DNA of 21,063 nt, taken from the IMG/VR virus record IMGVR_UViG_3300032360_000062, positions 1 through 21,063 of that record. One strand, given 5' to 3'. The DNA is from a virus. Every line of letters begins with the position of its first letter. The stretch's first letter is position 1. The position numbers and the translations under genes were made by a program. This document shows positions 2,309-21,063 of the stretch, piece after piece. The notes under the pieces are model-generated. The model had not been told where the DNA came from. It saw only the letters and a program-made list of their open reading frames with translations, and searched no databases.

Positions 2309-3295
2309 TTAGTCCCCACAGTAAGTAGATTGATCGTCGGAGTTTACGGGAATATCGTAAACATTTTCGTTAGTTGCAGGACCGTTGGTATCGTTGCACG
2401 CAGGAGGAGTAGCCTCAAACCGATTTCTCTCCTCATTTCTGGTCATTATGTCGCATATGGTTTGCTGATCGATCTCGTCATCGACCAGAATATCCAAAAA
2501 GTATTCTATAAATGAGGGATCTCCTTGCATAGCAATGTCGTGTGGAGTGTCTTCGATCGCAAAACAATATTGATTCTCCGGATAGTGTGAAGTGCCGTCG
2601 CTAACAGAAGATGTTATTTCAAAAACCTCAATATCAAAATTCTCTCTCTGAAAGTCGGTGTTCATCTCGACCACTTGCACAGTGAGATCTCTTTTCTTCA
2701 GGAGAATCATGGTCCCATCATCAAAATCGCGTAAAATATCGTACTCTTTTAAAATAGAGCCCCCAGGAGTGACCTGATTGCGTTGCCCTGGAGTAATTAA
2801 TCTCAAATCAAAGTCTATGTTGGTGTTTAATTGTGGTATAGACAAGTTCTGGTAGGAGCCAGTTAGGTCAGCCGAGGAACTGCTCAACGGACTGTTATTC
2901 ACTAACACGCTCCACGCAGGAGCATACTCGGACGATAGCTGAGATTTTCCCATGGGGTGAGCATATACAAGGTTGTTTTGTTTTATGTCTGGTAACAAGG
3001 TGTAGGAACTAGGAGGCGCATTCGGGTCCAAGCTCCTATTCTCAAATATGACTTGTCTAGCCTCGGCTTCAAGCCCGGTATGGCATACTTGTGTCTTAAG
3101 AGATATAGAGCTAGTAATCCTACTTTGTATTTCATTCTGTACTTCAGTTATGCCAGCCCATCCAGAATCGTATATAATATCGTCATCAAAAAAAGAATAA
3201 TAAACTGGCTTGAATTTGCCTAGCGATAGAAGCCTCTTTCCATAAGAGGTGAGTTCAATATCTATTACTTCTTCTTTTTTGTTAAAAAATGACAT
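2309..3295 (-). CDS. Conserved-looking phage structural protein of unknown function
   Basis: A 328-residue protein that I cannot assign to a named family. Its N-terminus is distinctive: KKEEVIDIELTSYGKRLLS (about 7-24), GKFKPVYYSFFDDDIIYD (about 26-43) and a polar element RITSSISLKTQ (59-69). I remember similar N-termini next to baseplate-type genes in environmental phage contigs, but could not check this. The rest is mixed alpha/beta and increasingly acidic, ending in a low-complexity Asn/Asp/Thr-rich tail with scattered cysteines (QTICD, PPACND, STYCGD). No signal peptide or transmembrane helix is seen. ATG at 3295 is nine bases after the giant gene's TAG; GGAG of the preceding codons lies about 14 bases upstream, a weak ribosome site. 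The next gene begins two bases after the TAA. A tail or baseplate role is inferred only from position. Confidence 0.8.
   Translation of the reverse strand: MSFFNKKEEVIDIELTSYGKRLLSLGKFKPVYYSFFDDDIIYDSGWAGITEVQNEIQSRITSSISLKTQVCHTGLEAEARQVIFENRSLDPNAPPSSYTLLPDIKQNNLVYAHPMGKSQLSSEYAPAWSVLVNNSPLSSSSADLTGSYQNLSIPQLNTNIDFDLRLITPGQRNQVTPGGSILKEYDILRDFDDGTMILLKKRDLTVQVVEMNTDFQRENFDIEVFEITSSVSDGTSHYPENQYCFAIEDTPHDIAMQGDPSFIEYFLDILVDDEIDQQTICDIMTRNEERNRFEATPPACNDTNGPATNENVYDIPVNSDDQSTYCGD
2313..2317 (-). promoter_or_regulatory. Ribosome binding site of the leftmost gene
   Basis: On the minus strand GGGGA lies 6 bases before the ATG at 2306 and within the last codons of the 328-residue gene. It supports that ATG as the start of the reading frame that runs off the left edge. 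Confidence 0.6.
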
Positions 3296-3304
3296 ATATT
3301 TTAT

Positions 3305-6300
3305 CTATCTCCGTGGTGGGCGGCCGCGTCCTCCTCCGCGGTTTCGTCGTTGGCGGTTTTGTCGATCGGCCGGGCGGCGCGGGGCGTCTACCGGGGGGGC
3401 GCCGCTTTCGGCTGCATCCAGAAGCTCCTGGTGGCGCGTTTGAGCTGTCTCTTCAGTTTCGAATGTAACGTTGGCGTCCAATTTTACTAATTCTACTAGA
3501 GAGAAAAAGTCGTAGGGCCAATTGTAACTGTAATCTGGAACACCGAATTTGGACGAAGTCCAGTCGCGTCCGGTCCTGATATTAAATTGGAACCTCTCAT
3601 CATCAGATGTGTCATTAGTTTTCTTAAAATAGTTCCAATGCGCTCGTTGTTTGACTTTGAACACGAGCCACTTAATGTCCTCAATGTTCGAAGGGGTTCG
3701 GGGATCCGGTGATAGAAACGCTCCTGCCATTAAATCGTGGGAAATAGTTGCTCTGGCAGTCTGAAAATCTCTAGAGATTGAATCGGGAGGCAAATTCTGC
3801 CAGATATCTGTTACATCTTTTCGAGATAACTCATGTTCAAACTCAAAAATGTACATAGCTATCGAATCCTGGTCCTCGTACGTTAAGAAATCATACATAG
3901 GAGGAAGAACATAATTTTTCATCTTTAGTAATTGTTCATAAACAGCTCTAATCCTTGATGTTTCCACCGGGACGTTACCCTGGCTGATCCTTTCTGTTGC
4001 GTTAGCAACCGAGTCACTGTCCAGCGTATAGTACTGTCGGCCGCCCGGTGACTCTGGTGAAGGCATGAAGGGGATTGCTATGACTGCTTCTTTGATGACT
4101 TTTCTCACACGAGACTGCCCCAGCTTGATCTTTCTCTTAGGCATTTGAATGAGATCAGCAAGAGATCCCGTAAGGCTCTCATCAACGTCTGCTTTCCCAA
4201 AATTGGCTAAGAACTTATTTTTATCATCAACATCAGAAGCTTGTGAATCCCTTATTTCCCAGAATATGCCTGTTTCTCCGTCAAGATCTACACCATATTG
4301 ATGCCACATCCCCCTGACGGTATTTGCGGTCGAGACGCCAGAGGGGCTCCTTGGTGAACGCCCCTTAGCTTCCAATGAGGCCGAAGTAAAGTCAAGAATA
4401 GGTGTCTCGAATCTAGTCTGGAACACAAGAGCTTGGCCGTCGCCGTCATGAAGATTTTCTGGGGCACCGCTGATCGCATTAAAACTAACATCTTTGGCAT
4501 TGACAAGAGTCAGTCTTGTTGCGTCATCCGAAAGATTTAATGTTGCGTCGAGTTGCATCCAATCATTAAAGGCAGGTCCCACACCGTATTTCGCCAGCCC
4601 CCCATTAACCAAGGTATATAATGCAGGACTAATGGTGTGATAATACTTGATTGTAGAGGCATTTAATATCTCATTAAGACTATAAACCTGATCCTCTATG
4701 GGGTCGTCAACCCTGGGCGGATCAAAGGTTATCCTAGCAGTGGCTGCAAAGCTGTAGTAGGGAGGAGCGAAGGGGTAGGAAACACCGTCGGTGACGGCAT
4801 TATCATAGAATTGTACCCTGGGCCCATAAGCCTTGTCGCCGGCGCCGAACGTGGTCCCGATGTTGTACATAATATCACCATGTTGTTGTGTCGGTTCGCT
4901 TCCGCCAGGGTACATCGCGATATCCATTATGTAGGTTTTTGTTGGGTCTGCGCGAAAACCATTGCCATCTGGAGCAGATGCGAAGGACGATAGCTGCCCA
5001 TCCTTTAAGAAAAAGTTAATGGATTCTGCCAAGAAATTATGCATTGCTAACTTATAGCGGTCATCGCCATCACCACCCCAGGAAGCGGTTGAGTTAATCT
5101 CAGTGTCCGCATCAGTTACTTCAATATCAACTACTTGCTGCCCTCTTAACCACTCCGGTTCAACGAGAGCCTCAAATGGTATACGGAAGCTGGCTGAGGT
5201 GTTTATTGCCGAACCATTGGTTCCTCTTTCGATTGCGCGGGCGTCGGTGGCACTTCCAGTATAAATTGGAAAGTCGCATGCGACACCTCCCTTGATTGTA
5301 TTGTATAGAATTCCCGGGGCGAAAAATGGCTGTAAGAATGTCCGCATGCTTGCTTGTCCAGTACCAGTCTCACCACTAACTGAGGAAGAGAATTGAATAT
5401 TTTTGCCGTAAGATTGACTAAATAAACTCGCTAGCTCAACGGTTCTTTGTGCTGGGTAAAAACCCTTATAGGGTAAGAACTTCATGACAGCGTTGCACTC
5501 CAACGTAAGCTGAGTGGGGTGATCAACTCCTCGGGCGGCCGCCACAATTGGTTTAAAGTGCTCTAGGAAATCAGTGGTGGAGTACACATCGAAGAAGGAT
5601 GCCATCGAGCTTGACGCCATGGCATCCGGGGGCGCTGCCTCATTCAGCACGGCGCCAGTTAAACTTAGGAAGCCCTCGGGGGGAAGGGGCGCTGAGAAAT
5701 TTTTATCTTGTGCGACGACGTAATAATCCATATAATCGCTGATTCTGAACTCAGGAATCACTGTGTATGCTTTTCCATAACGCTTTACGTCTTCGATATA
5801 GCCCTCATATGAATCATAATAAAAAGGATTCTTTCCAGCTTGGGCGCCGGCCTCCCAAATGACAGAATAAAGGCTGTCGATACCATTCCTACCATAGCAG
5901 CTACCTGTTTGCAGATTTGCGGGGGTACCTCCATGGTTCAGGGAATACCTGTTTAATAATTCTCCCTCAGCATTACGAGAGGATGGCATTAGAGAGGCGC
6001 CTGTGACGAAAGGATCGATCCTGCCATCTAAGACCCACATGCTCTGACTCTGAATGATACTTATGTTTGTAGGTTCCGACACTGACGAGGTTGCCGTCTG
6101 ATAGTGCACTCCCATCGAGTTTGAAACATTTGTTTCGGTTCTGTGACTCCTGAGGGGGTGCCAAAAATCTACAATGAAGTTTTCTCGCTGCCTAACTTTC
6201 TTGAGATAAGCGTTTTTCTCTCGCGGGAATACTGTTTCACGATATGTAATTCGCCCTATTTGCTGATCCGGAGGCATTGATTCACGGAAAAGTGTAGTAT

Positions 6301-9300
6301 GGATTTGTTCATCGCGCACTGGTTCTGTGTTGATACCAAAAGATTCGATAGCTGTGTTGTTCTTAGTGCTCTTGTTATATCTTGTAAAAGTTACTAAGTT
6401 GTTCCCGTATGTGTCCGCTATCAGTACATGGTCCGGTGATGCTATGTCACCAAACTCATGTCTTAAGGGGGCGTATTTTGATGTGACCACTGATTCAGTT
6501 ATGAAAGCTACGTGGTCGGCACGGTTCTGAGGATATTCTTCATTTGACTTTGGTCCGGTAAGCGCGCGCGCCTGGTAGTAGGCTAGTGCGGACGGATGCC
6601 TGTGTTGCGTAGGATCATTTAAGTTGTGATAATTCGATCCAAAATCCTTTACTGATTGAAAGCGGTGAGGGAGATAAGACATAATATTGGTCTTTCTCTG
6701 ATTTCGGATAATCGGACTTTGTCCAGCCCTAATCTGCTTCCATGAAGGATATTGGTAAGGTCCATTGCGATGCAATAGGATTGAATTAAGAACGCTGGCG
6801 CTAGCTTCGGTGGCTTCGTTGGCGCTAATCCTGTCGATAAATGAACCAGTTGCTGCCCATGATACAGGCAGCACCATATCACCACCAGTGTTCAAACTGT
6901 GTATAAGATTTGTTTCGGAGATATCGTACCCCAAAAGGTTCTGCGAGCTTGTTAGAGGCTCATATATGTTGGTATTCATACCTGCGAAGTCCGTGGGGAT
7001 AAAGCCCGGACCGGGGCCGAAATTAGCAATATTCCGCGGACTAAAGTCGATAAGACTAGCACTTTGAGGATTACCCCAATATCTCAGAGGTGCGTTGGTG
7101 AATAGCTTATTGGCATTATAAGAACCATATTCCGAGTGTTGAACAAACTTTAATTCGTCGGAGGAGGTTGCATAGTTCATCTGGTGTGCCATATTAAAGT
7201 TACCAGATACTGGTGACCGAAGAAGGGACGCTGTAATCCACATATACTGAGAATCTCTCTGTGGGATAGCGTGTTGTATAAACCAGTTATCTTGCGTAAG
7301 ACTTGCAGTATACCATGAGCCTGAGTCTGGAACCGCTGCGCTGCCGCCTATGACTAAGCTTCCTCTCGAAGTATGAGATCGACGCCCGTTTCTAGATGCA
7401 TCGCGAACAATGTTAGCCCCGTCGTCAGGGCTGTCCCCAAACCTCCACCACGCCGACAAGCTCGCAAAGGATGTGTGTTGCAACCAATCAATAACACCTC
7501 CAGTAGCGCCGGGGACGAGATCATTATCTTTATATCCCTGGAGATCTTTCACCTCCTGGGGGGTCAAAGCCTTATCCCATAGACCCAGTTCGCTCATGTT
7601 GCCCTTGAAAAATTTCTTACCGGTGTCGGCGTTGGTGTTAGCAGAACCAACTACAATCGAGTCGGTGGGCAAAAGTTGCCATGAGGCTTGGACGTCTGTG
7701 GTTGTGTTCCACACCGCACCGTCGAGATATGCTCTGATTCGGCATCGAGCAGGCTGCGAGAATGAACCAACGGGATCATATGGAGTAGTGCCCAAGAACT
7801 CATATGTAAATCCGACGAGATGCCACTCCCCGTCGCTCACATCGAGGCCGCTCGCGAGACCTGTCAGGGGATCCCCGAAGTAAAGCGTAAGTTCACCATC
7901 ATCTAGATAGAACCAGAGTTTTGAGCGGCCGCTGACGATGACTGGGTTGTTGCTGCCTTCGGAGTCATAAATGCGAACGAGGCTTCGTATGCCACTATCA
8001 TCAGTCGTCTTTATCCAGAGGAAGACCGAGATCTCTCCGTTGTTAGCAAGCTGTAAAGGTCCTATGGTGGAGAAGTTGGCGCCCGAGCCGGCGCCGAACT
8101 CAAGGAAATCATCAGTGCCATCGAACACAGTCGATTGCGCCGTCATGATACTTTCTTCAACAAACTTCTTAACAACTCGTGGGTTTCTATTTGTCTTATG
8201 ATAAGAGCCAGTTAGAAGACTAAAATCGTCCATGTAGCGTTCGCTAGCGTCGAAAAAGGAGGATGATACCGTGCCTGATCTAATTCCGTATTGCCCAGAC
8301 GGCTCTCTTAACAGCGAGTTTAATGGCTGTCTTACACTCAGATTTCTCCAGGGCAAAGCGTTGTAAGGAGAGTATTCTTCAGAAGTGTGATCTCTTGTTC
8401 CTCTCGCCATTACTTCGCCAGAACCAGGAGCGCTGAATCTCTCAGTTATGACGGTCTTGTTTGTCGATCTCTCTGGCAACGAGTAGTCGATAACGCCAGT
8501 TACGTATAATGACTCACTGTTAGTAATCGACAAGCTCTCAATAAATAAGTTGTTGGCTTTCCTGCCGCTTGTTTGTACAACTTGGTAGTTCTTTTCGAAG
8601 TTGCCGATCTTGGTTATGCCGGAACTTGTAACCTGTTGAATGTTAGCGATGTTGACGGGCCGCTTAGCGTATGTTTCTCTTATTCTGTTGGCGAATGGAA
8701 GGTATTTATAAGCTGGATCGACAGCTAGCGTAACAGGAGGAACTATAGATGTTGTTTGAGTCGCTCCCCCGGTGGCTAGAGCTAAAGTATTAGAATTTCC
8801 TGAGGAATCTGCCGTCAAATCATCTCCAAACTGCCACCAAGCTTGCAAACTCGAAAACCCCGACAGATCCATGCGGCCCGTGGCGGTCCCCCCATAGCGT
8901 TGTACGAACCAATCATTGCTGTATAACTCGCTTACTTGAGTCGCACTAAGTTCTTCATTGAAGATTGCCATTTCGCCCATATATCCCACATAAGGGTGGC
9001 TGTAGACGGGCCCGGTGGGGTGACAGCTAACGCCAATATTTATAGCATCAGCCGTTGATATGGTAAGCGAGAGGGTTGCAGAATCGCGCTCAACACCATC
9101 AACGTACAGCTTAAGGTCGTTTGTGGTGTCATCAAAAGTGAGTGCAAAGTGATGCCACTCTCCATCATTGATTACAGTAGTGTATTCTACTGTTCCGAAG
9201 GCGTTGACCCCTGCGCCTAGCTTATTGTCTTCATCAATGAGAATGTGAAAGCGATTAGTGGTACCTTCGCGGATCTGGAGGATGTTGCCGCCAAGGAGGG

Positions 9301-12300
9301 TGGCATCATAGTTTGTACTAGTTTGTATCCATGCTGCAACAGTAAAGTCCGCAGTCATATCCAAGTTGGTTCCGACGACCGATACAAAACCCTTACCACC
9401 AGTGGCGGCGCCGGCTGTGTTGTCAAAATGGGCTGCTGATTCAGCGAGTGTGCCGGTGCGGGCTTGGGCCGGGCCACTCACGACAATGGCGCCGGGGGCG
9501 CCGCCGACTTCGTCTTCTAGTACTATCCTATAACCCTCAGGTCTAGTGTATAAATTGTCTAAGTAATCTTTACTATCATCGTTCCTATAGTTCACGTCTA
9601 CATGGCGATATTGGTAGCCTCCAACATACTTCTCGGTGAAGGGACCCTGCATTGGAATCTCAAGATTAGAACCGTATGAATCATCATGAAGATTGGTAAT
9701 GTCCAACCCTTCAAAGCCGTCAACGTCCTGGATCTCGACAACGTAACCACTAGCCGTCATTGAAGAGGAATAGAAACTTAAGGGTGTGTTTTCTTTACGT
9801 GAACCTGTCTGCTGTCCAATAGAATCATGACCAGTATAGCTTTGATAAAACACCTTTTTCTTTGATGCTGGCTCTCCCGCCGGATTTGAAGATGTTTCCT
9901 GATTCCTGTAAGTAGGCTTCAGAAGATCTGAGCAATCTACAAATTGCTCAAGATTAGATCCTGTGATATACACATAATCCTCGTACAAGTCCATGTCGGC
10001 TTCGTTTTCAATATTTGAAAAACTGCTTAGAACTGATTTCTCTTTGTGATTATTAGATAGGCTGTTTTGACCACTCTTAATGTCATTTCTCTCAACCGCA
10101 CTAAATTGAACCGGAGCAGTCATTTGCCGATCAAACTTCTGAACGATCGACGTATACATGTCTGTTCTATCGCTATCAATGCCAGCGTCGAAGATGTGCG
10201 GAGTTGACGATGCGGTCGGTTCTGCGCGATGTTTCCACCAGAAGCAATTCTCATCCTGTGACAGATCAACGGGGGCGTGTCCATATTTCCATGGATAAGG
10301 AGATCCTCCTCCGACGCCGGGTGAAGTCATAGGTCCTGCAGGATCCGTTATTAACTTGTTTTCCACCATGGGGAATTTATTTCGGTACTTATTGCGCTCT
10401 AATACGTGACTATCGATCATGGTTCGAACACCCTCAGAGAACCGGGCGGAGGCCGGGATCAACTGACGCAGCATTATTGATAGCGACTGATCAATCCATT
10501 TGTAGTACTGAAGATATTTTTCAAAGTCTATTGTTTCATTCTCTACTCTCTCAAAAAATAACTGGCGGAGCTTCTCTAGTGGCTTATACTCTTGTCGATA
10601 CCGACCAGGAGTATCTCCAATGAGGTTATTAAAATCAACAATGGTTGCAAAGAATTCCAGCATCTCGCGAGAAACGGCGTCATAAATGCTTTTTTCAATT
10701 GAGAAGAAATAATTTATTGGTCTGGAATTTCTATCAAAATACACATCGTCATTCGATAACACTTTGATCATGTCAGTACTGTCAAGATTTTCCAAGCCAC
10801 GCTGTTTCTGGGCGTAGATATAATTATTGCTTATTACGTTAGTTGCGCTTCCTGAGAAGCCGTAGCCAACTCCCGGGTGTTGTAGGTGAAGCATGTTTCC
10901 AAGCCAACCAGAACCAGAGGCTGCGGCGAGGGAGCCCGAAGAAACATCTGCAACAGCAAACTCACCGGTGGCAGAGGAGCCTGTAACTAGGGCAAAATCC
11001 CAGTCAAGCATTCGAGTGTTAATTCGAGGAATGTAGTTTTCAACGCTATTAGAGCTACCAGTTCCGGCGACCATAAAGGCTTGACGGTAGGGGTGCAGTC
11101 TCCCAAAGCTTGTAGGATCTTTTGCGTGAGCTAACACTTCATCGTTGCTTAAGACATCTAACCATGCGCGGACGGAGGAGATCCTAACGTCGCTCTGTTC
11201 AAGAGTTGAACCAGTGAAATCAGTTTTATGGGCGCCGGCATATACGCGCTTTGAAGACGACAAGAACAGTTGTCCTTGAGCCTGGCTCATTGATGACGTC
11301 ACATAGAAACTATGTTGAACGATGTCATATTCCATACACGACCCATAGAATTCAACCTTGTAATCGACGCCGATGGTGCCCCCAACGAAGGAGGCGGAGA
11401 GAAAAATATCTGTGATAGTTGAACCATCAAAATCTGTATTGCCGGAGGTTCCGTAGGAGCTTTGTGTTAGCTGACAAACACCAGGCGTGCCGGCTGCGGT
11501 AGCGGCGATCGTCCCGTTATGTCCATCGGTCGCATTGATACACGCAGCCAGCGATGTCGCAAGGGCGGCGGCGGTGGAAGATTGATTAAATTCCCGGGCG
11601 GCAAGATCCTCAGCAGCTTTAGCGGTATAGGTCTTAGCCGTGCCGGCGTAGTCTGTGATTATGATGGTCTCGTCGACTGATGGAAGACCTCCGGTGGCCT
11701 GCATCGTAGTTGTGGCGTTGACGCCAATGCTTCCGCTCATCAAATAAGATTGCGGATATGCCTCCGGAGCTACCTTAACGGCGAGGTTCCAACGCTTATT
11801 TTTGTACCCCTCAGGGAAGGCGGCGGAGGTTAACTCGGAAACAAACCCTTCAGTACTGGAGTCGGGATTCGAACTAGTGAGAACAAATTTTACCTCACCT
11901 AACGACGGCTGTCCTTGAGTATACTCTTTTGTTACATATACCTGAAAGTTTGCCGGATCATACAGAGACCATGCTGTAACTGCATGATCCTCGTTGGGTG
12001 TGTGTATACCATAAAGCGATGACGACGCAAAGCTAACAGCAAGATACTGTGACCCCACTGATTGTGCATTTACAGTGGGTAAAATTACCTCTGCTTCGAA
12101 TGTTAACCCAAATCCATCAGTCAGATCGTGCGATGAACTAAGGTAAGCAACAGAATTGGCATTATCACTACTAGTGTGTTGATAACATGTTGCACTAAAG
12201 TTGTCGGCCGCATGAAAATTAATATAGTTTTTTCTAAACGTCTTATTTTTCAGGTTGTCTGCTAACTCAAATTCAATGTTATTCCCATAAACTTTTAAAT

Positions 12301-14134
12301 CAACGACATCTTCATCAACACCAAAACATTTTATTAAATTCTTAAAAGAAGCCTCAGTTCCTTTTGATTTGTAAATATTGACGATATTGTTATAAATGTT
12401 CTCGTATATGCGATTCTTAACATCATTAATATCCTCTACAAACAGTTTGTCATCTGAACGAGAGCCTAAAATTTCTGAAATTTCTGCATCCACAAACAAC
12501 TCAGGAGTCGTTAACCCTACAGATTCCAACATTTCCTTTGCAAACGGATACGGCTTGTTGGAAGCAGAAGTATATGTGTCGTTGTCTCTAAACGTTGGGA
12601 GCGCATTAATCTGAAGATACAGATTGTCAAAATAACTTGACATTATCTGTGTTAAGTTCTTAAGGGCGCCATTGTCATCTTCCTCTTGGATCCAGGAAGG
12701 TATAGAACTATATAAGCTAGAAACATTCTGGTAGTCGTACTCAGTACCCGAGAGCGCTAGGTTGGTTGATAGCGTCGTAACATCCGGGTGGTCGCGATAC
12801 ATGATGGGGTCTTTAAACTCAAACAACGAAGCACTGGCTTCTACAATGGCTGAGTCGATGCTGCGTGCACCTGAAGCATAGCCTACAAAAGTACCATTAG
12901 TAACGCGCCCTGAATAATCTAAAACCTTCTTATCAATCGCAGTGTTTGCAGTAATGCCTTCATTAAATTTGTAGTATACACCAAGCTTGCTGGCTGCATC
13001 ATCAGTATTGACTCCACCCTCGACCTGATCAAGCCAGTTCAGCCCAATTTGTCTGGCCGTTCTCTTCGTTTTCCAATATCTGAACTCATCTAGTGAACCT
13101 GAGAGTTTCCACCAGCCAAGGGATCCTACGGCAGAGCCAGGGGTAGCATAGTAGCTATCAATGCCAGCACCGACGGCGGCCTGAAGCGCGCCTGTAACCT
13201 CGTTTATAGCGGCGTCGGTGTCTTCAACCGTGTTTACCCAAATCCCATTTTGATATATCTCGTATAATAAGTTGCTTCCAGTGTTCTGCAAAGTAACCGC
13301 ATAGTGATTCCAGGATCCTGTAGTGGTTAAGTCTAATCCATCGTTAATTGTATATAACTTTGTTTGTTGACTAATAGTGCCCGATTGCAGTAGTGCATTA
13401 AGCCCACTGTTCCCGGCTGTTCTATCGTTATAATAATATAGTTGAAAGCGTCCAAGGGGGCTGCCGGCAACAAGGACCGTGCCAGTGGGTTCATTATTCG
13501 TCAAGTCAAAAATGACCTGCCTATCAGTTGTAGCGTCTGGATCTAGCTCACCTAGTTTGACCCAGAACTCAACGGTGGCGCCGTCTCCGCTTAGATCGAA
13601 TTTAAGATTGGATTCCCTATCACTAGCTGCATCAAAAACGTTTGAACCGCTGAATGTGCTAGCTAGCGTTTTTCCAATCATACCAGAGGACGCTGTATTC
13701 GGTCCTCCGTAAAAAACGATGTACTCTTTAGTTGTAGGGTTGCCTAGCTCCTCACTATCAATTGCATACCCGTCGGAAGCTATGGTTATATACCCGTTGG
13801 TACGCGGATACTCATTATCAAATATATGGAGATCTAAATAAGACGAGCTATTCTGCCACTGAAGTTTTTCAACACCTGAGCCATCATATGGATAAAAGTC
13901 AATTATTCTGTCAATTGCGTCACCATAATACCTTTCGGCAGATCCAAATTTTACAAAGTTAGAAGCCGAAGAGAAGTCAATGTGAGGAATAAACCGGCGG
14001 TCCTCAACTGAGCGTGCATCAACATACTTGTCGGGACTACTGTTGGTTTCGTCGGCAATCTCTGCAACACTCTTATTGTCAAGAGATGTAAGATCGCCCC
14101 TTGTTTTAAATAGATCTTTTAGGTTGTCGCTCAT
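3305..14134 (-). CDS. Giant (3609-residue) baseplate/tail protein with gpI/gp7-like region and multiple LamG domains
   Basis: A single uninterrupted frame, about 400 kDa if uncleaved. Order seen: N-terminal scaffold (about 52-87, DFSSASNFVKFGSAERYY then YPYDG); LamG/ConA-like domain 1 (about 160-395); a helical region with K591-G592-T593 in IYKSKGTEASFKNLIKCFG, like the KGT signature of P2 gpI-type wedge proteins; a ConA-like domain (about 675-1010) with a second small domain nested at about 800-918; a helical segment (about 1140-1255) ending LERNKYRNKFP; LamG 2 (about 1558-1790, GEWHHFALTFD); scaffold (about 1805-1862, KRPVNIANIQ); LamG 3 (about 1997-2262, GEWHLVGFTYE); long beta-rich scaffold; a conserved-looking C-terminal module (about 3340-3557, MYIFEFEHELSRKD and WPYDFFSLVELVKLD); and an Arg/Gly-rich tail (3584-3609). 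Position after W-J-like genes suggests the gpI/gp7 slot of the wedge. The ATG overlaps the upstream TGA. The gene is certain; the wedge role is moderate inference, and receptor binding by the LamG domains is weaker inference. Confidence 0.9.
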   Translation of the reverse strand: MSDNLKDLFKTRGDLTSLDNKSVAEIADETNSSPDKYVDARSVEDRRFIPHIDFSSASNFVKFGSAERYYGDAIDRIIDFYPYDGSGVEKLQWQNSSSYLDLHIFDNEYPRTNGYITIASDGYAIDSEELGNPTTKEYIVFYGGPNTASSGMIGKTLASTFSGSNVFDAASDRESNLKFDLSGDGATVEFWVKLGELDPDATTDRQVIFDLTNNEPTGTVLVAGSPLGRFQLYYYNDRTAGNSGLNALLQSGTISQQTKLYTINDGLDLTTTGSWNHYAVTLQNTGSNLLYEIYQNGIWVNTVEDTDAAINEVTGALQAAVGAGIDSYYATPGSAVGSLGWWKLSGSLDEFRYWKTKRTARQIGLNWLDQVEGGVNTDDAASKLGVYYKFNEGITANTAIDKKVLDYSGRVTNGTFVGYASGARSIDSAIVEASASLFEFKDPIMYRDHPDVTTLSTNLALSGTEYDYQNVSSLYSSIPSWIQEEDDNGALKNLTQIMSSYFDNLYLQINALPTFRDNDTYTSASNKPYPFAKEMLESVGLTTPELFVDAEISEILGSRSDDKLFVEDINDVKNRIYENIYNNIVNIYKSKGTEASFKNLIKCFGVDEDVVDLKVYGNNIEFELADNLKNKTFRKNYINFHAADNFSATCYQHTSSDNANSVAYLSSSHDLTDGFGLTFEAEVILPTVNAQSVGSQYLAVSFASSSLYGIHTPNEDHAVTAWSLYDPANFQVYVTKEYTQGQPSLGEVKFVLTSSNPDSSTEGFVSELTSAAFPEGYKNKRWNLAVKVAPEAYPQSYLMSGSIGVNATTTMQATGGLPSVDETIIITDYAGTAKTYTAKAAEDLAAREFNQSSTAAALATSLAACINATDGHNGTIAATAAGTPGVCQLTQSSYGTSGNTDFDGSTITDIFLSASFVGGTIGVDYKVEFYGSCMEYDIVQHSFYVTSSMSQAQGQLFLSSSKRVYAGAHKTDFTGSTLEQSDVRISSVRAWLDVLSNDEVLAHAKDPTSFGRLHPYRQAFMVAGTGSSNSVENYIPRINTRMLDWDFALVTGSSATGEFAVADVSSGSLAAASGSGWLGNMLHLQHPGVGYGFSGSATNVISNNYIYAQKQRGLENLDSTDMIKVLSNDDVYFDRNSRPINYFFSIEKSIYDAVSREMLEFFATIVDFNNLIGDTPGRYRQEYKPLEKLRQLFFERVENETIDFEKYLQYYKWIDQSLSIMLRQLIPASARFSEGVRTMIDSHVLERNKYRNKFPMVENKLITDPAGPMTSPGVGGGSPYPWKYGHAPVDLSQDENCFWWKHRAEPTASSTPHIFDAGIDSDRTDMYTSIVQKFDRQMTAPVQFSAVERNDIKSGQNSLSNNHKEKSVLSSFSNIENEADMDLYEDYVYITGSNLEQFVDCSDLLKPTYRNQETSSNPAGEPASKKKVFYQSYTGHDSIGQQTGSRKENTPLSFYSSSMTASGYVVEIQDVDGFEGLDITNLHDDSYGSNLEIPMQGPFTEKYVGGYQYRHVDVNYRNDDSKDYLDNLYTRPEGYRIVLEDEVGGAPGAIVVSGPAQARTGTLAESAAHFDNTAGAATGGKGFVSVVGTNLDMTADFTVAAWIQTSTNYDATLLGGNILQIREGTTNRFHILIDEDNKLGAGVNAFGTVEYTTVINDGEWHHFALTFDDTTNDLKLYVDGVERDSATLSLTISTADAINIGVSCHPTGPVYSHPYVGYMGEMAIFNEELSATQVSELYSNDWFVQRYGGTATGRMDLSGFSSLQAWWQFGDDLTADSSGNSNTLALATGGATQTTSIVPPVTLAVDPAYKYLPFANRIRETYAKRPVNIANIQQVTSSGITKIGNFEKNYQVVQTSGRKANNLFIESLSITNSESLYVTGVIDYSLPERSTNKTVITERFSAPGSGEVMARGTRDHTSEEYSPYNALPWRNLSVRQPLNSLLREPSGQYGIRSGTVSSSFFDASERYMDDFSLLTGSYHKTNRNPRVVKKFVEESIMTAQSTVFDGTDDFLEFGAGSGANFSTIGPLQLANNGEISVFLWIKTTDDSGIRSLVRIYDSEGSNNPVIVSGRSKLWFYLDDGELTLYFGDPLTGLASGLDVSDGEWHLVGFTYEFLGTTPYDPVGSFSQPARCRIRAYLDGAVWNTTTDVQASWQLLPTDSIVVGSANTNADTGKKFFKGNMSELGLWDKALTPQEVKDLQGYKDNDLVPGATGGVIDWLQHTSFASLSAWWRFGDSPDDGANIVRDASRNGRRSHTSRGSLVIGGSAAVPDSGSWYTASLTQDNWFIQHAIPQRDSQYMWITASLLRSPVSGNFNMAHQMNYATSSDELKFVQHSEYGSYNANKLFTNAPLRYWGNPQSASLIDFSPRNIANFGPGPGFIPTDFAGMNTNIYEPLTSSQNLLGYDISETNLIHSLNTGGDMVLPVSWAATGSFIDRISANEATEASASVLNSILLHRNGPYQYPSWKQIRAGQSPIIRNQRKTNIMSYLPHRFQSVKDFGSNYHNLNDPTQHRHPSALAYYQARALTGPKSNEEYPQNRADHVAFITESVVTSKYAPLRHEFGDIASPDHVLIADTYGNNLVTFTRYNKSTKNNTAIESFGINTEPVRDEQIHTTLFRESMPPDQQIGRITYRETVFPREKNAYLKKVRQRENFIVDFWHPLRSHRTETNVSNSMGVHYQTATSSVSEPTNISIIQSQSMWVLDGRIDPFVTGASLMPSSRNAEGELLNRYSLNHGGTPANLQTGSCYGRNGIDSLYSVIWEAGAQAGKNPFYYDSYEGYIEDVKRYGKAYTVIPEFRISDYMDYYVVAQDKNFSAPLPPEGFLSLTGAVLNEAAPPDAMASSSMASFFDVYSTTDFLEHFKPIVAAARGVDHPTQLTLECNAVMKFLPYKGFYPAQRTVELASLFSQSYGKNIQFSSSVSGETGTGQASMRTFLQPFFAPGILYNTIKGGVACDFPIYTGSATDARAIERGTNGSAINTSASFRIPFEALVEPEWLRGQQVVDIEVTDADTEINSTASWGGDGDDRYKLAMHNFLAESINFFLKDGQLSSFASAPDGNGFRADPTKTYIMDIAMYPGGSEPTQQHGDIMYNIGTTFGAGDKAYGPRVQFYDNAVTDGVSYPFAPPYYSFAATARITFDPPRVDDPIEDQVYSLNEILNASTIKYYHTISPALYTLVNGGLAKYGVGPAFNDWMQLDATLNLSDDATRLTLVNAKDVSFNAISGAPENLHDGDGQALVFQTRFETPILDFTSASLEAKGRSPRSPSGVSTANTVRGMWHQYGVDLDGETGIFWEIRDSQASDVDDKNKFLANFGKADVDESLTGSLADLIQMPKRKIKLGQSRVRKVIKEAVIAIPFMPSPESPGGRQYYTLDSDSVANATERISQGNVPVETSRIRAVYEQLLKMKNYVLPPMYDFLTYEDQDSIAMYIFEFEHELSRKDVTDIWQNLPPDSISRDFQTARATISHDLMAGAFLSPDPRTPSNIEDIKWLVFKVKQRAHWNYFKKTNDTSDDERFQFNIRTGRDWTSSKFGVPDYSYNWPYDFFSLVELVKLDANVTFETEETAQTRHQELLDAAESGAPPVDAPRRPADRQNRQRRNRGGGRGRPPRR

Positions 14135-15624
14135 CTTTCAATTCTGAACTTAAATTCCTTTTCACCCTCAGTATACTTGCTGTTCAAATAATACAAAAAC
14201 CGCAAAGTGTATGAATAGCCGGGTTCGAGCATATGCACGTCCAAATCAAAGTAACTTCCTGTTGAATCCAACGATAACTTTGTTTGGTTATCACTCCCTG
14301 TCCCGTAATCGAAGACAGGGTACTCATCATAAGTCCGATAGAGACTGTAAAACACAGATTCTACTGGATAATTTTGGGCTTGGGCGACGACTTTCGAATA
14401 AACATTTGGATTCCAATTCTTGTTTCTGGTATAGAGGCGGAACCTAGTAGTCTTTTCATCTAAGTGATAAACTGCTTTCAAGTTGGTGATATTTTCGACG
14501 ATCTTAACATTAGGATTATAGTTTGATGAATCAAATTTCTTGGGCGTGATGCTTCCAGTGTGGTATTGTGTTCCCGCATCATCGTGCCACACATCATAAA
14601 TGCGTGTCAGGGGCGTCGCGGCGGCCGTCACGGCATAAGACGCTGAATATATTCCTGTGGAAACATAGCCGCCAGTTACGTTGGTATCGTCAGCAGAAGC
14701 AACGTCGCCGCCTACAGCCAACTCCAGCGCTGAGCCGGATGGTTCCGTATTATCATCTGATCCCGAATAGAGGCTTACATAAATGGCACCAGTATCTGCG
14801 CCGGGAATATCCGCTAAGTGCCCACGTATTACGTTATAAATGTAAACTGTATTAATATTATCGGCTGCAGGAGCAACAGAACTGCTATAGTAGAAGTTTC
14901 CTCTGTCATCAATCTTGGAAGAATCCCATCGTGCCTCTATTACTGGCCTCTTGAGAAAATACTGTGATGAGCGTGCAAAGAACTTTTTAGTGTATTGAGT
15001 AACACCACTCGTTTCCAAACTGGACGTGAGTCGTACGACTAGTCCGTAGTTGTCAATGCCGCTGTCGCCAGAACCTTTGATCCAGTCTTCAACCAGGGGT
15101 GTGATATCAAGTTCGATATCTTCAACACCGGATTCCATCGTAACATCAAAAACGTTCTCGTTTTTGTTTTGATCCAAGAAGTCGCCGCCGGCAGTTGTCC
15201 AGGTACTTCCTGAGCCGGCGTTAATCCAGTTCGAACCAGTTTCATCATAAGTGAGATCACTATAGTTCTCCATGTCCATGCCGTACCCCTCTTCCCATGC
15301 CGTTGAAACCGGCATTACTGAGTAGGTTGTGTCGCGCGGAATAGTGGACGCGTGGGGGGCGTTATAGACACGAAGGTAAAATGAAACGCTGCCGCTGGCG
15401 GGAACGTCTCCGTTGGTTCGGTCGGTGGAAATATCGGAGACCGGAAAATTAATTATAACCCTAGAAAGTTCCTGAGAAGTTGAAGATTCCTGCCCATAGA
15501 TGTGGAATACTTCTAAAATATCCGCTCGTCCCATATTTGAACCGGTTCCTCTCGTTGAGAGGTTCAACTCAAACGCATTAGTAATGGTATTGTCTGCATC
15601 TGCTGTATATCTTTTGATAGCCAC
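14131..15624 (-). CDS. Phage structural protein with DNRLRE-like (beta-jelly-roll) N-terminal domain
   Basis: This 497-residue protein sits between the gp6-like and giant wedge genes. Residues about 38-233 have the layout of a DNRLRE-type domain, a beta-sandwich found in secreted carbohydrate-associated proteins: RVIINFPV (55-62), LRVYNA (84-89), TAWEEG (108-113), Trp133, DITPLVEDWIKG (173-184), NYGLVVRL (192-199) and RPVIEARW (226-233). The remainder is beta-type sequence rich in Ser, Thr, Gly and Tyr, ending in a strand-rich KEFKFRIER. No signal peptide or membrane segment is visible. The N-terminus YTADADNTITNAFELNL resembles proteins I remember from uncultured marine phages, which supports the GTG start. 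The stop codon overlaps the start of the giant gene as ATGA, so the two are probably coupled in translation. A baseplate or fibre component is likely; binding to glycan is inference from the fold. Confidence 0.85.
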   Translation of the reverse strand: MAIKRYTADADNTITNAFELNLSTRGTGSNMGRADILEVFHIYGQESSTSQELSRVIINFPVSDISTDRTNGDVPASGSVSFYLRVYNAPHASTIPRDTTYSVMPVSTAWEEGYGMDMENYSDLTYDETGSNWINAGSGSTWTTAGGDFLDQNKNENVFDVTMESGVEDIELDITPLVEDWIKGSGDSGIDNYGLVVRLTSSLETSGVTQYTKKFFARSSQYFLKRPVIEARWDSSKIDDRGNFYYSSSVAPAADNINTVYIYNVIRGHLADIPGADTGAIYVSLYSGSDDNTEPSGSALELAVGGDVASADDTNVTGGYVSTGIYSASYAVTAAATPLTRIYDVWHDDAGTQYHTGSITPKKFDSSNYNPNVKIVENITNLKAVYHLDEKTTRFRLYTRNKNWNPNVYSKVVAQAQNYPVESVFYSLYRTYDEYPVFDYGTGSDNQTKLSLDSTGSYFDLDVHMLEPGYSYTLRFLYYLNSKYTEGEKEFKFRIER

Positions 15625-17890: not shown

Positions 17891-20800
17891 TTAGGCTTCG
17901 GCGGCTTCAGCGGCGAGGAGTCGGAGGCGTTCCTGGGCAGCGTCCAATTCACTCTTAGTTCTATAGGTAGTTTTCCCAGCGTTTGGGGTTAAATCATCAG
18001 GAAGTTCAACGGGTGGCATTAATATCTCATCTAGCGGAGCATTAGTATAAACCTTGTCATATCGTACAGGATCTAGGCACTCTTCGCCTCCGGCGCCAAG
18101 GGCTCCTCCGGCGCTCCCTGGGCCGCCCTGTCCTGCCTTCAGTTGACCGGTGGGGCATGCCGTCTTCCCGCCGGGGTCTGGCTTAACGTACTCTGGGAAC
18201 ACAATATCTGGAATTCTTAAATCAAAGCATCCCCATTCGTCCTTCATTCTCTCTCCAAACCCTCCGAGGAGTTCACTGTCTTTGGTGGTGGGCAGTATGG
18301 GGCAGAGCAGCAGTTTCAGTATCATCATGGTAATTCCGCCGACCAAGTCACTCCCGAGGACGCCGAGGGCGCCTGTGATGATTGCAACGATAGCATCAAT
18401 TATCATCTTTTGTATATCAAGACCGAAAGAGCCAAGTATATCATCCCAATCGAGCCCAAAGAGCGCGTCCATCAAGTCAGTATCTTTGCATCGATTTATT
18501 TGCTCATCATCAACTAAGACATAATACAATTTCTTCAAGGCTTTCTTAACTGCGTCGAAGGTACCGTCCGTATCACGATATAAGCTTGTGGTCAGCAGGT
18601 CCAGACCCAAGAATGCAGTACCATAGAGCCTATCAGTTGGGAAAATGTTCTGTGATAAGGACCTATACTCTTCGCTGTTTTTTATTTCTTCTTGTAAACG
18701 GTTAAAGTGATCTTCAGCACCCCATTCCTCCAAGTTAACACTGAGGGAGTAGGAATCCGTTAACACATACTCTTTTTCAAAAATAGGCAGAGTAGTTATC
18801 CCTAGGGCGGCCGCCCGCCCGTATTCGGCGGGAATGTATTCGTAGGTATTCAACATTTTTTCTTGATGTGATGCTTCCGCAGCAGGACCGCCCGCATATC
18901 TCAACCACCTGGCATAATTGTTTTCGCCGGCCCAGACGTTGCCATGAGCGTACCCTTTTATTCCGGTCTCTTGTCCTCCCAGATCCGGTACAGGAGGCAT
19001 ATAAACAAGTCTAACTCCCAAAGCCAACCTGTCAAAATATTCTGTTATTTTTGCTGATGGATTTTGTGCTGCCGCTGCCTTAACGCTGGCGTCCCAAAAG
19101 TCGTTCCATTTGTCGTAATTAACTACGCCCGCAAGATCCGGAGTATTTACCTGCTCCTGTATATTGCCCTGCCCCAGGGTGACCCTCTGGTCAAGCTCCG
19201 TCTCAGAAACTCGTGATGTAGGACGATTGTCTGGACTAAGTACTGCGCCGAGGACGCCGGGTACAGGTGAAGGTTTGTCAACAACTCTTACATACTTTTG
19301 AAAGAAAAATGTTCCAAGGCGGCTCGCCTGACCGAAGCGGTCGTCGGAGAGGCTGGGGCGATAATAGGTGGAAGGATCCGCAAAATCGAAGGGTTTGACG
19401 ACACGAGACCATGGCACTTGATAAAGCTGATTATAAGGAAGAAACAAACCTTCAGCTCTAGTTTTCAATTCAGGATTCTCGAAGACCCCGCCGAGGTGAT
19501 CTGGCTCACCGGCGGCCCTCAATCTGTCAACATGATCCTTCATAATAAAGTCGAATTCGCCCACCAAAGATGGCACCTGCTCTTTTAACATGAATACGAT
19601 CATATCATCTAGCGATGTTACTTGGATGGGTTGGCCGCCGATAGGATCTACTCTTAGAGACTGATCACCTCTGTTTTTTCGATCCCTCATCATCTTTTTT
19701 ATTGTTTGCACAAAATCGCAATAGAAGCCTTTATCCTTACTAAGCTCCATCTTGATCTTTTGAGTTATATACATTGGTACGACATTAGAGTTGAAGATAT
19801 CTAGCATATTGAACGTGGCGATCAGTGGATACATCTTCAACAAAAACTCAAGCGTATATATTCTCATGAACAGATACATCACGCCGGCAATACTGGCTCG
19901 GGCGAGAGGAGAGATATCCTTGCCTGCTGCCGGGTCGCCGACAGGATCACATACAGGATTTTTTGAAAACTCTTCCCTCACCTTGTCTTTTAAGACCGAA
20001 AGCCCGAGGAGATCTCCATGTGGTGCCATTGGAGGAAGTTTTATATATTCTTGCTTTGGCAACCCTTCGTCATTGTAACCGACCCCCTGTTTTCTCATAA
20101 AACCCCTACTTCTTTGCAGACGATCATAGCTCTTCGGAATAAACTCGATGTCTGATAGTTGTGTCGCATTTTGGAATATTCCCCACACGGAATTGTAAAC
20201 CTGCGTGGTCATACTATCGCACAACGCTGTGTACTCCTGTTTAGCCTCGATCTCCCAAGCTATCCGCGAATCAATTAGCGGAGGGGCGCCCTTCGCTGTT
20301 AGGTTATCTTCTATAAGTTTGAAAAAGGCAACAGGCTTAGAAGTGGGTGTGGCTGCGGGGTATAGATTGGGAGCCGACGAGAAATCATAATAATCTATAT
20401 CGTATTGACGGACATCTGATATCCCAAAGGGGGGCTCATTAGGGGGGTTCGTAATGCCGGGCTGGGTAACTTGCGTTTGCTTTTGATATATTACTTTAAA
20501 GCGATCGCGATTCGGTTCTTCTTCTTCAGCTGACAGATCCACGATGTGCAAAGTGGGCTGTATCCTAAAGTTTAGCCCAAACTGTTCCGGAGTTCCGGCT
20601 TTGAACGCAGCAGGACGAGTTACTTCGACTCCGTCGCGTTGAGCGTCGAATTCCGCCGTGAAAGCTATAGTTTTAAACCCATCTGAAAGCTTCGCTGTTG
20701 CCTTCTTGCCCGGGTATGCTAATTCAAACTGATCGGATGGTATGTTGATCATTAAAATGGAGTTAGAGGCACCAACACCATCAAGAAATGGCATTGGTTG

Positions 20801-21063
20801 CAGCATATCGTTTTTATTAGACTGAAGGTAGTCGAATACTTTCTTTAGTGGCTTCTGCTTGGCTTGAGCATCCCGGATATAGGCAATGTCAAGAACTCCG
20901 CCGTCCAAGAACCCTTGATATTCCACGTCTAGGAATATGGCACCTGGCAGAGTTAGGGGTGTATCTCCCGCTTCGAACTCCTTTCCCATATAGTAATAGT
21001 AAAGCCACTTCGCGCGAGCTAGCGGGTGATCCAAGTTCGCATCTGCAGAAGGTTTTGTTGGAG
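17891..21063 (-). CDS. Large phage virion-associated protein of unknown function, N-terminus missing
   Basis: I do not recognise a family. The frame ends at a TAA codon at 17891-17893 and remains open to the right edge: codons upstream of the TTG at 21034 read PTKPSADAN without a stop, so the true start is probably outside the window and TTG should not be taken as the start. About 1057 residues are visible. Numbering from that TTG, residues about 372-412 and about 873-915 are long hydrophobic stretches (for example AGVMYLFMRIYTLEFLLKMY) that could be membrane-seeking helices or buried helices. A Gly/Ala-rich low-complexity stretch lies at about 964-986, and the protein ends in an Ala/Glu/Leu-rich helical tail (LLAAEAAEA). 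It sits immediately upstream of the gp25-like gene on the same strand, so a tail or baseplate role is likely from position alone. No catalytic motif was seen. The gene is certain; its function is open. Confidence 0.85.
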   Translation of the reverse strand, partial: PTKPSADANLDHPLARAKWLYYYYMGKEFEAGDTPLTLPGAIFLDVEYQGFLDGGVLDIAYIRDAQAKQKPLKKVFDYLQSNKNDMLQPMPFLDGVGASNSILMINIPSDQFELAYPGKKATAKLSDGFKTIAFTAEFDAQRDGVEVTRPAAFKAGTPEQFGLNFRIQPTLHIVDLSAEEEEPNRDRFKVIYQKQTQVTQPGITNPPNEPPFGISDVRQYDIDYYDFSSAPNLYPAATPTSKPVAFFKLIEDNLTAKGAPPLIDSRIAWEIEAKQEYTALCDSMTTQVYNSVWGIFQNATQLSDIEFIPKSYDRLQRSRGFMRKQGVGYNDEGLPKQEYIKLPPMAPHGDLLGLSVLKDKVREEFSKNPVCDPVGDPAAGKDISPLARASIAGVMYLFMRIYTLEFLLKMYPLIATFNMLDIFNSNVVPMYITQKIKMELSKDKGFYCDFVQTIKKMMRDRKNRGDQSLRVDPIGGQPIQVTSLDDMIVFMLKEQVPSLVGEFDFIMKDHVDRLRAAGEPDHLGGVFENPELKTRAEGLFLPYNQLYQVPWSRVVKPFDFADPSTYYRPSLSDDRFGQASRLGTFFFQKYVRVVDKPSPVPGVLGAVLSPDNRPTSRVSETELDQRVTLGQGNIQEQVNTPDLAGVVNYDKWNDFWDASVKAAAAQNPSAKITEYFDRLALGVRLVYMPPVPDLGGQETGIKGYAHGNVWAGENNYARWLRYAGGPAAEASHQEKMLNTYEYIPAEYGRAAALGITTLPIFEKEYVLTDSYSLSVNLEEWGAEDHFNRLQEEIKNSEEYRSLSQNIFPTDRLYGTAFLGLDLLTTSLYRDTDGTFDAVKKALKKLYYVLVDDEQINRCKDTDLMDALFGLDWDDILGSFGLDIQKMIIDAIVAIITGALGVLGSDLVGGITMMILKLLLCPILPTTKDSELLGGFGERMKDEWGCFDLRIPDIVFPEYVKPDPGGKTACPTGQLKAGQGGPGSAGGALGAGGEECLDPVRYDKVYTNAPLDEILMPPVELPDDLTPNAGKTTYRTKSELDAAQERLRLLAAEAAEA

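Follow-up and report, generated by a model that had tools for sequence, protein, structure and literature searches.

The 3609-residue protein encoded in this viral DNA is probably a gp7/gpI-type wedge protein of an uncultured clade of contractile-tailed phages that carries its own covalent adhesion modules. The window, which is the whole stretch analyzed here, is a 21,063-base viral record, and its relatives were taken from IMG/VR. It contains seven sizeable genes, on the minus strand throughout: an open frame of 1047+ aa, gp25, gp6, a 497-aa gene, the 3609-aa giant, a 328-aa gene, and an open frame of 768+ aa (Table 1). A preceding sequence-only reading had placed in the gpI/gp7 slot a protein of this length, and the reading frame is indeed intact, with 3609 codons from ATG to TAG and a mass of 398.8 kDa. 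Its ATG shares a 4-nt overlap with the stop codon of the 497-aa gene, and a 9-nt gap separates its end from the 328-aa gene. Comparison with the nearest relative, L119, over 3359 aligned codons gave a pN of 0.23 versus a pS of 0.76, with 1896 differences at the third codon position versus 936 and 681 at the others, so the giant is a protein under purifying selection. The extreme enlargement that had been proposed holds against P2 gpI and pyocin Tri2 (176-177 aa) and T4 gp7 (1032 aa), and the computed mass of six copies, 2.39 MDa, reproduces the earlier estimate of ~2.4 MDa. The chain, otherwise acidic (pI 4.9), closes with a basic Arg/Gly-rich tail (RRNRGGGRGRPPRR; 3308-3385, minus strand).

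Table 1. Features of the window, with residues counted on the giant and coordinates on the 21,063-base record.
Feature	Coordinates	Strand	Basis or remark
Giant wedge-slot protein (putative), 3609 aa, 399 kDa	3305..14134	-	ORF reading, neighbours, codon comparison
N-terminal conserved region, residues 1-160	13655..14134	-	found throughout clade
LamG 1, residues ~161-390 (PF13385 stretch ~164-364)	12965..13654	-	PF13385 + LamG profile
gpI-like helical half, residues 437-632, invariant K-x-K-G	12239..12826	-	profiles; TIGR02242/PF09684 matches of relatives fall here
KGT motif, K591-G592-T593	12356..12364	-	read in translation
Insert between gpI halves, residues ~640-1060	10955..12217	-	ConA-like by eye + Foldseek alignments spanning the homologous region
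Mobile ~120-residue cassette, residues 803-919	11378..11728	-	missing there in most relatives
gpI-like C-terminal half, residues ~1082-1300, 'LIPASA' at 1225	10235..10891	-	profile, alignment
M module, residues ~1440-2005, LamG 2 nested inside	8120..9817	-	profile comparison across loci
LamG 2, residues 1579-1736, nested in M module	8927-9400	-	PF13385, LamG profile
LamG 3, residues ~2017-2220	7475..8086	-	PF13385, LamG profile
C module, residues 2440-3570	3425..6817	-	clade-conserved; separate gene in some lineages
C-terminal tail, residues 3571-3609	3308..3424	-	last ~25 residues basic, Arg/Gly-rich
gp25/gpW-like sheath initiator, 131 aa	17435..17830	-	PF04965, E 3e-11
gp6/gpJ-like wedge protein, 598 aa	15624..17420	-	PF04865, E 1.3e-6; phrog_6 baseplate wedge, E 3.5e-22
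497-aa gene, between gp6 and giant	14131..15624	-	conserved; DNRLRE-like, below cut-off
328-aa gene, directly after giant	2309..3295	-	conserved

The neighbouring genes define the slot. The order gp25, gp6, one gene, giant, noted earlier from the letters alone, is borne out by the PF04965, PF04865, and phrog_6 matches and recurs across the clade. IMG/VR holds at least 140 gp6 relatives, and the gp6-linked loci with the downstream region present make up a set of 36 loci. In these, gp25 is followed by gp6 (~600 aa), a gene of 466-887 aa, the giant in single or split form, and usually a gene of ~300-380 aa. The third gene had been called an extra one; it is not peculiar to the window, as its family is kept across the clade and is present in three deposited phages: Flavobacterium phage immuto, which is the nearest cultured phage, Microcystis phage Mel-JY01, and LR756508. 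The Mel-JY01 homologue is CBM96-like, just below the cut-off, and, together with the DNRLRE-like character of the 497-aa protein itself, this suggests that more than one baseplate-region protein may carry carbohydrate-binding-type folds. The gene upstream of gp25 (17891-21061, minus strand) is giant too, with 1047+ aa before it is cut by the window edge; several relatives have frames of ~2,150-3,160 aa there, with no family match. The window itself spans only 21 kb. Phage_sheath_1 matches, in agreement with a contractile tail, come from the three deposited phages and from the records of seven of 17 relatives, one of which scores above the curated cut-off. The sheath-matching open frames of G025, G026, G027, G028, G033, G040, and G046 are long, at 930-1166 aa versus 663 in T4. 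Genome bins of relatives pointed to Maricaulis, Poseidoniales, WOR-3, Flavobacteriales, and other hosts; these bins are mixed and probably misbinned, so we claim no host.

The giant is linked to known phages through a core in two halves. The core profile (residues 437-632) matches each of the three deposited phages once only, always in the slot ORF: immuto (1265 aa, E 1e-47), Mel-JY01 (1336 aa, E 7e-49), and LR756508 (1400 aa, E 2e-49). The alignment behind these values (A5) includes the three deposited phages as rows, and a giants-only profile built without those rows recovers the same three phages at E 8e-42 to 6e-46. A profile of the region around residues 1060-1310 matches the same three slot ORFs at E 2e-17 to 5e-42; the C-terminal half was aligned (A6) with immuto-type loci and with the deposited phages left out. 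The slot ORF of these phages follows gp25, gp6, and a gene of ~370-420 aa, and the synteny is supported gene by gene, with E-values of at most 1e-19 for gp25, 1e-125 for gp6, and 1e-17 for the ~500-aa gene. Because both core halves are homologous by profile and the genes are syntenic, the giant belongs to the slot-protein family of immuto, Mel-JY01, and LR756508. The residues K591-G592-T593, singled out in the sequence-only reading, lie exactly where they had been placed, and the surrounding K-x-K-G is invariant in all 58 diverse aligned sequences. The two halves are separated by 26 residues in immuto, ~300 in Mel-JY01 and LR756508, and ~420 in the window. This difference in spacing points to a two-half domain, whose insert would have been gained in some lineages or lost in immuto.

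Beyond the core, the size of the giant is made up of LamG 1, the core-splitting insert, extra LamG domains, a mobile cassette, and the M and C modules, which together account for ~2,000 residues. Built-in binding domains had been anticipated, and three LamG stretches are present: PF13385 (Laminin_G_3) matches the window's giant with an E-value of 8e-42 and 143.4 bits against a gathering cut-off of 27.6. Binding is predicted, and the LamG domains would recognize host glycans. The LamG profile detects LamG 1 in every N part from the 36 loci and in nearly all complete ones elsewhere. When the L114 homologue was modeled with AF2, this domain resembled the LG domains of pentraxin and PAPP-A (Z ~20, rmsd 3 Å, ~210 residues). 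Among 57 complete single-chain giants, between one and three LamG domains were detected, in varying number and position. The cassette moves as well: 57 copies occur at changing positions in 44 proteins, which comprise giants and enlarged versions of the 497-aa gene (L101, L118, L386, L428, and others). Two slot-protein relatives in A6 carry another accessory domain type, FISUMP/Fib_succ_major (E 3e-35). M and C are kept throughout the clade. We found no known relatives of either module; in the three deposited phages, their profiles were not detected within 40-kb regions spanning the slot gene, and profile-profile comparison with T4 gp6-gp12 (part of a 63-cell hhalign matrix) gave nothing above background.

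T4 gp7, P2 gpI, Mup48, and TssG occupy the same slot in wedges of the (gp6)2-gp7 type (PMC6300606). We infer that the core of the giant is gp7/gpI in fold and stoichiometry, and that the giant chain is part of the virion. Like T4 gp7, the T6SS protein TssG, and XM1 gp17, the core (residues 437-632 and ~1082-1300) would tie a pair of gp6 copies together in every one of the six wedges, with one copy of the giant per wedge by analogy with T4, T6SS, and XM1. TssK trimers are held by two loops of the TssG sheet (PMC6300606), and XM1 gp17, a gp7 orthologue of 242 residues, uses its C-terminus and an internal loop to hold spikes (PMC10457771). The insert inside the core and the C-terminal extension of the giant would, by the same analogy, lie at the kinds of place where the family holds spikes or fibres. 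The covalent modules would then be arranged as a LamG domain in front, a ConA-like region between the core halves, and M, C, and further LamG domains behind; on the simplest reading, modules that are attached non-covalently in other phages would here be part of the chain. The likely job of the protein is to provide an outer wedge from one chain together with rapidly exchangeable surface-binding modules, whose target would probably be polysaccharide.

M and C would form the baseplate periphery; matching nothing known, they could also have another role. The giant is more than an enlarged gpI, since some sister lineages encode the last ~2,000 residues in genes of their own. As a tentative extension of the wedge-protein reading, a gp7/gpI protein might have absorbed its outer-baseplate neighbours (M and C) along with exchangeable adhesion modules. 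Six chains of ~400 kDa would then form the outer baseplate and make the first host contact, the same arm being built from two chains in sister lineages. Alternatively, and rather unlikely in our judgement, the gpI-like part could be a mere anchor for a fused receptor-binding device, in which LamG, M, and C act as a fibre or spike that replaces separate tail fibres. The constancy of the core beside LamG domains of varying count and position suits such a device, as do the spikes that the family attaches at comparable places (PMC10457771) and a search next to the giant in G033, where no recognisable fibre gene was found. M and C, however, are conserved throughout the clade, unlike typical fibre tip domains, and unnamed ~1000-aa genes downstream may themselves be fibres.

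The clade offers both single and split forms of the slot protein. In the 36-locus set, the slot is filled either by one giant ORF of 2921-4416 aa or by two consecutive ORFs, of 1121-1256 plus 1561-2886 aa or of 1803-1853 plus 1281-1536 aa. A search with the C module returned at least 588 encoding stretches, from which 80 further loci were kept for analysis: the giant is single and complete in 57 (2628-3686 aa, median 3145), has a separate downstream ORF for the C part in 16, and is cut by locus ends in seven. The recurrence of a complete single ORF in 57 of these 80 contigs shows that the giant is no assembly artefact. The split forms are real genes too, because the seven split junctions read in the 36-locus set consist of a normal stop followed by an ATG, in a different frame in six, and two of the seven carry an AGGAG sequence. 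The domain order, gpI half, C-terminal half, M, C, is constant in all loci.

These same observations bear on the idea that the chain is a polyprotein: cleavage at the gpI/M and M/C linkers after assembly would release two or three baseplate proteins, which the split genes would make separately. Genuine gene starts recurring at the same two linkers, and a module order that never changes, fit this idea; yet fused chains are in the majority, with the 57 single complete giants against 16 with a separate C part, and we regard such processing as improbable. In a gp6 tree, the clade and the three deposited phages are separated with full support; the backbone is unresolved, so the tree does not polarise fusion versus fission. 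The best tree needs two changes for the split after the gpI part (split A) and three for the split after M (split B), and each may have had a single origin, as far as the gp6 sequences indicate.

Three loci depart from the common pattern. In L418 the break (899 + 2195 aa) falls within the core and parts the gpI half from its C-terminal counterpart instead of lying at a linker; this may be a real split or a frameshift error. The shortest slot protein seen is a 648-aa immuto-type ORF with the gpI half (L274:4117-6060), in which the C-terminal core half was not found. A 1559-aa slot-protein relative lies among small ORFs in the 2.8-Mb chromosome of a WOR-3 bin (L235, CP070664.1), a genome with no gp6 match, and is either a provirus remnant or an assembly mixture.

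The assignment to gp7/gpI has good, though not complete, support. Apart from LamG, searches of the giant against PHROGs, Pfam, and NCBIfam gave no wedge-relevant match reaching a curated cut-off, and in PHROGs the window's giant had no match. Sequence searches of the PDB with the N, C, and core profiles returned no relevant match, and tblastn of the N part, the C part, and the 497-aa gene against 50,697 phage records returned none. The gpI families nevertheless converge on the slot. Sub-threshold PF09684 matches occur in six of the 19 records searched and weak TIGR02242 matches in eight relatives' records among 41, with P2 as a positive control. Together these amount to 13 records (G047 by both models), from related sequences and so not mutually independent, and every match falls in the slot ORF. 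The best match covers the KG motif in 12 of the 13; the exception, G043, matches the N-terminal part of the model and, more weakly, the KG region. Of the 58 aligned members, 16 match TIGR02242 (best E 0.0014), which makes it by far the commonest NCBIfam match. The sequence-only reading would have been undermined by a separate gpI homologue, and none was found: across ~3.7 Mb, comprising relatives of up to 190 kb, most of them fragments, deposited phages of 160-484 kb, and the known part of the window's genome, neither PF09684 nor TIGR02242 matched anywhere else besides P2 gpI itself.

All matches in relatives' records lie below the curated cut-offs, and the window itself has none. T4 gp7 is an accepted member of the gp7/gpI group, and the T4 genome has no TIGR02242 match either, so failing that cut-off does not discriminate. 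By hhalign, the KGT stretch aligns in exact register with the KGI of T4 gp7 and the KGT of gpI (E 0.013 and 0.033, neither significant alone). When segments of the giant were compared with T4 gp6-gp12 in the 63-cell matrix, the best value, 0.015, came from the same KGT/gp7 pair and is about what chance gives for the best of 63. The gpI fold combines a helical bundle with a mixed beta sheet. AF2 modeling of the intact L114 N-part gene gave a good LamG region and a gpI region of low pLDDT; the Foldseek and VIA lists are filled by LamG folds, which makes the absence of gp7 from them uninformative. The compact immuto-type core was modeled at a mean pLDDT of 45.9, with all fold-search matches non-significant. 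Among these, a baseplate chain of a Streptomyces injection system (E 4.2) was not counted as evidence.

The earlier gp7/gpI identification is therefore kept in part. Synteny, slot-protein homology, the K-x-K-G motif, and the weak gpI matches on the slot ORF favor it, and the curated cut-offs are not reached. Given weak but concentrated gpI matches, non-significant hhalign values, and a low-confidence fold, we call the giant gp7/gpI-type and leave it outside the families PF09684 and TIGR02242. It is very improbable that an unrelated giant adhesin sits in the slot with a gpI-like motif by chance, as the unreached cut-offs and low-confidence models without a significant fold match might suggest: three deposited phages each have a single match, their slot protein, at E ~1e-48, and the weak gpI-family matches all gather on the slot ORF.

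Wedge proteins set the symmetry of the baseplate and pass the host-contact signal to sheath contraction. A slot chain of 3,000-4,400 residues with a fixed core and mobile modules, present in hundreds of uncultured contigs, would mean that the gp7 position has been re-engineered very far. The 648-aa and 1265-aa homologues, the split genes, and the single giants form a natural series for the evolution of baseplate complexity. The BFVD/UniProt-derived relatives of the giant are uncharacterised, and the wedge-protein reading offers a likely function for this large group of viral proteins. We found no publication on a giant gp7-slot protein in the literature searched, which is poor in subscription journals.

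Proteins at the gp7/gpI slot usually have 200 to 1,000 residues, compared with ~3,000 to 4,000 in the giants of this clade. The closest counterparts are the slot proteins of immuto, Mel-JY01, and LR756508, annotated as 'hypothetical' or unannotated, which share the gene order and both homologous core halves with the giant but are a third of its length and have no detectable LamG, M, or C. P2 gpI, pyocin Tri2, and Mu gp48 share a W-J-I-like order and a KGT in the same local context; P2 gpI and Tri2 differ in having 176-177 aa without accessory domains, and the giant's clade stays below the cut-offs of their families, PF09684 and TIGR02242. T4 gp7 (1032 aa) is likewise a large wedge protein with accessory domains around a KG-containing domain ('YSTKGIEASYKFLFKLL' vs 'YKSKGTEASFKNLIKCF'), but it has no LamG, and gp8-gp12 of T4 are separate genes. 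The gp7-like part of baseplates in extracellular contractile injection systems (eCIS) has been described as a hotspot of re-engineering (PMC8894135). In Alg12/Pvc12 this part holds fibres (PMC8894135); unlike the giant, it is fused to the gp6-like part, and the likeness is one of description. Wedge proteins with added domains are thus already known from T4 gp7 and Alg11/12. A functional parallel is provided by the evolved Dit (evoDit) of siphophages, in which carbohydrate-binding modules are inserted in a baseplate scaffold protein (PMC9128512), although evoDit is a different protein, of 383-504 aa, from non-contractile tails.
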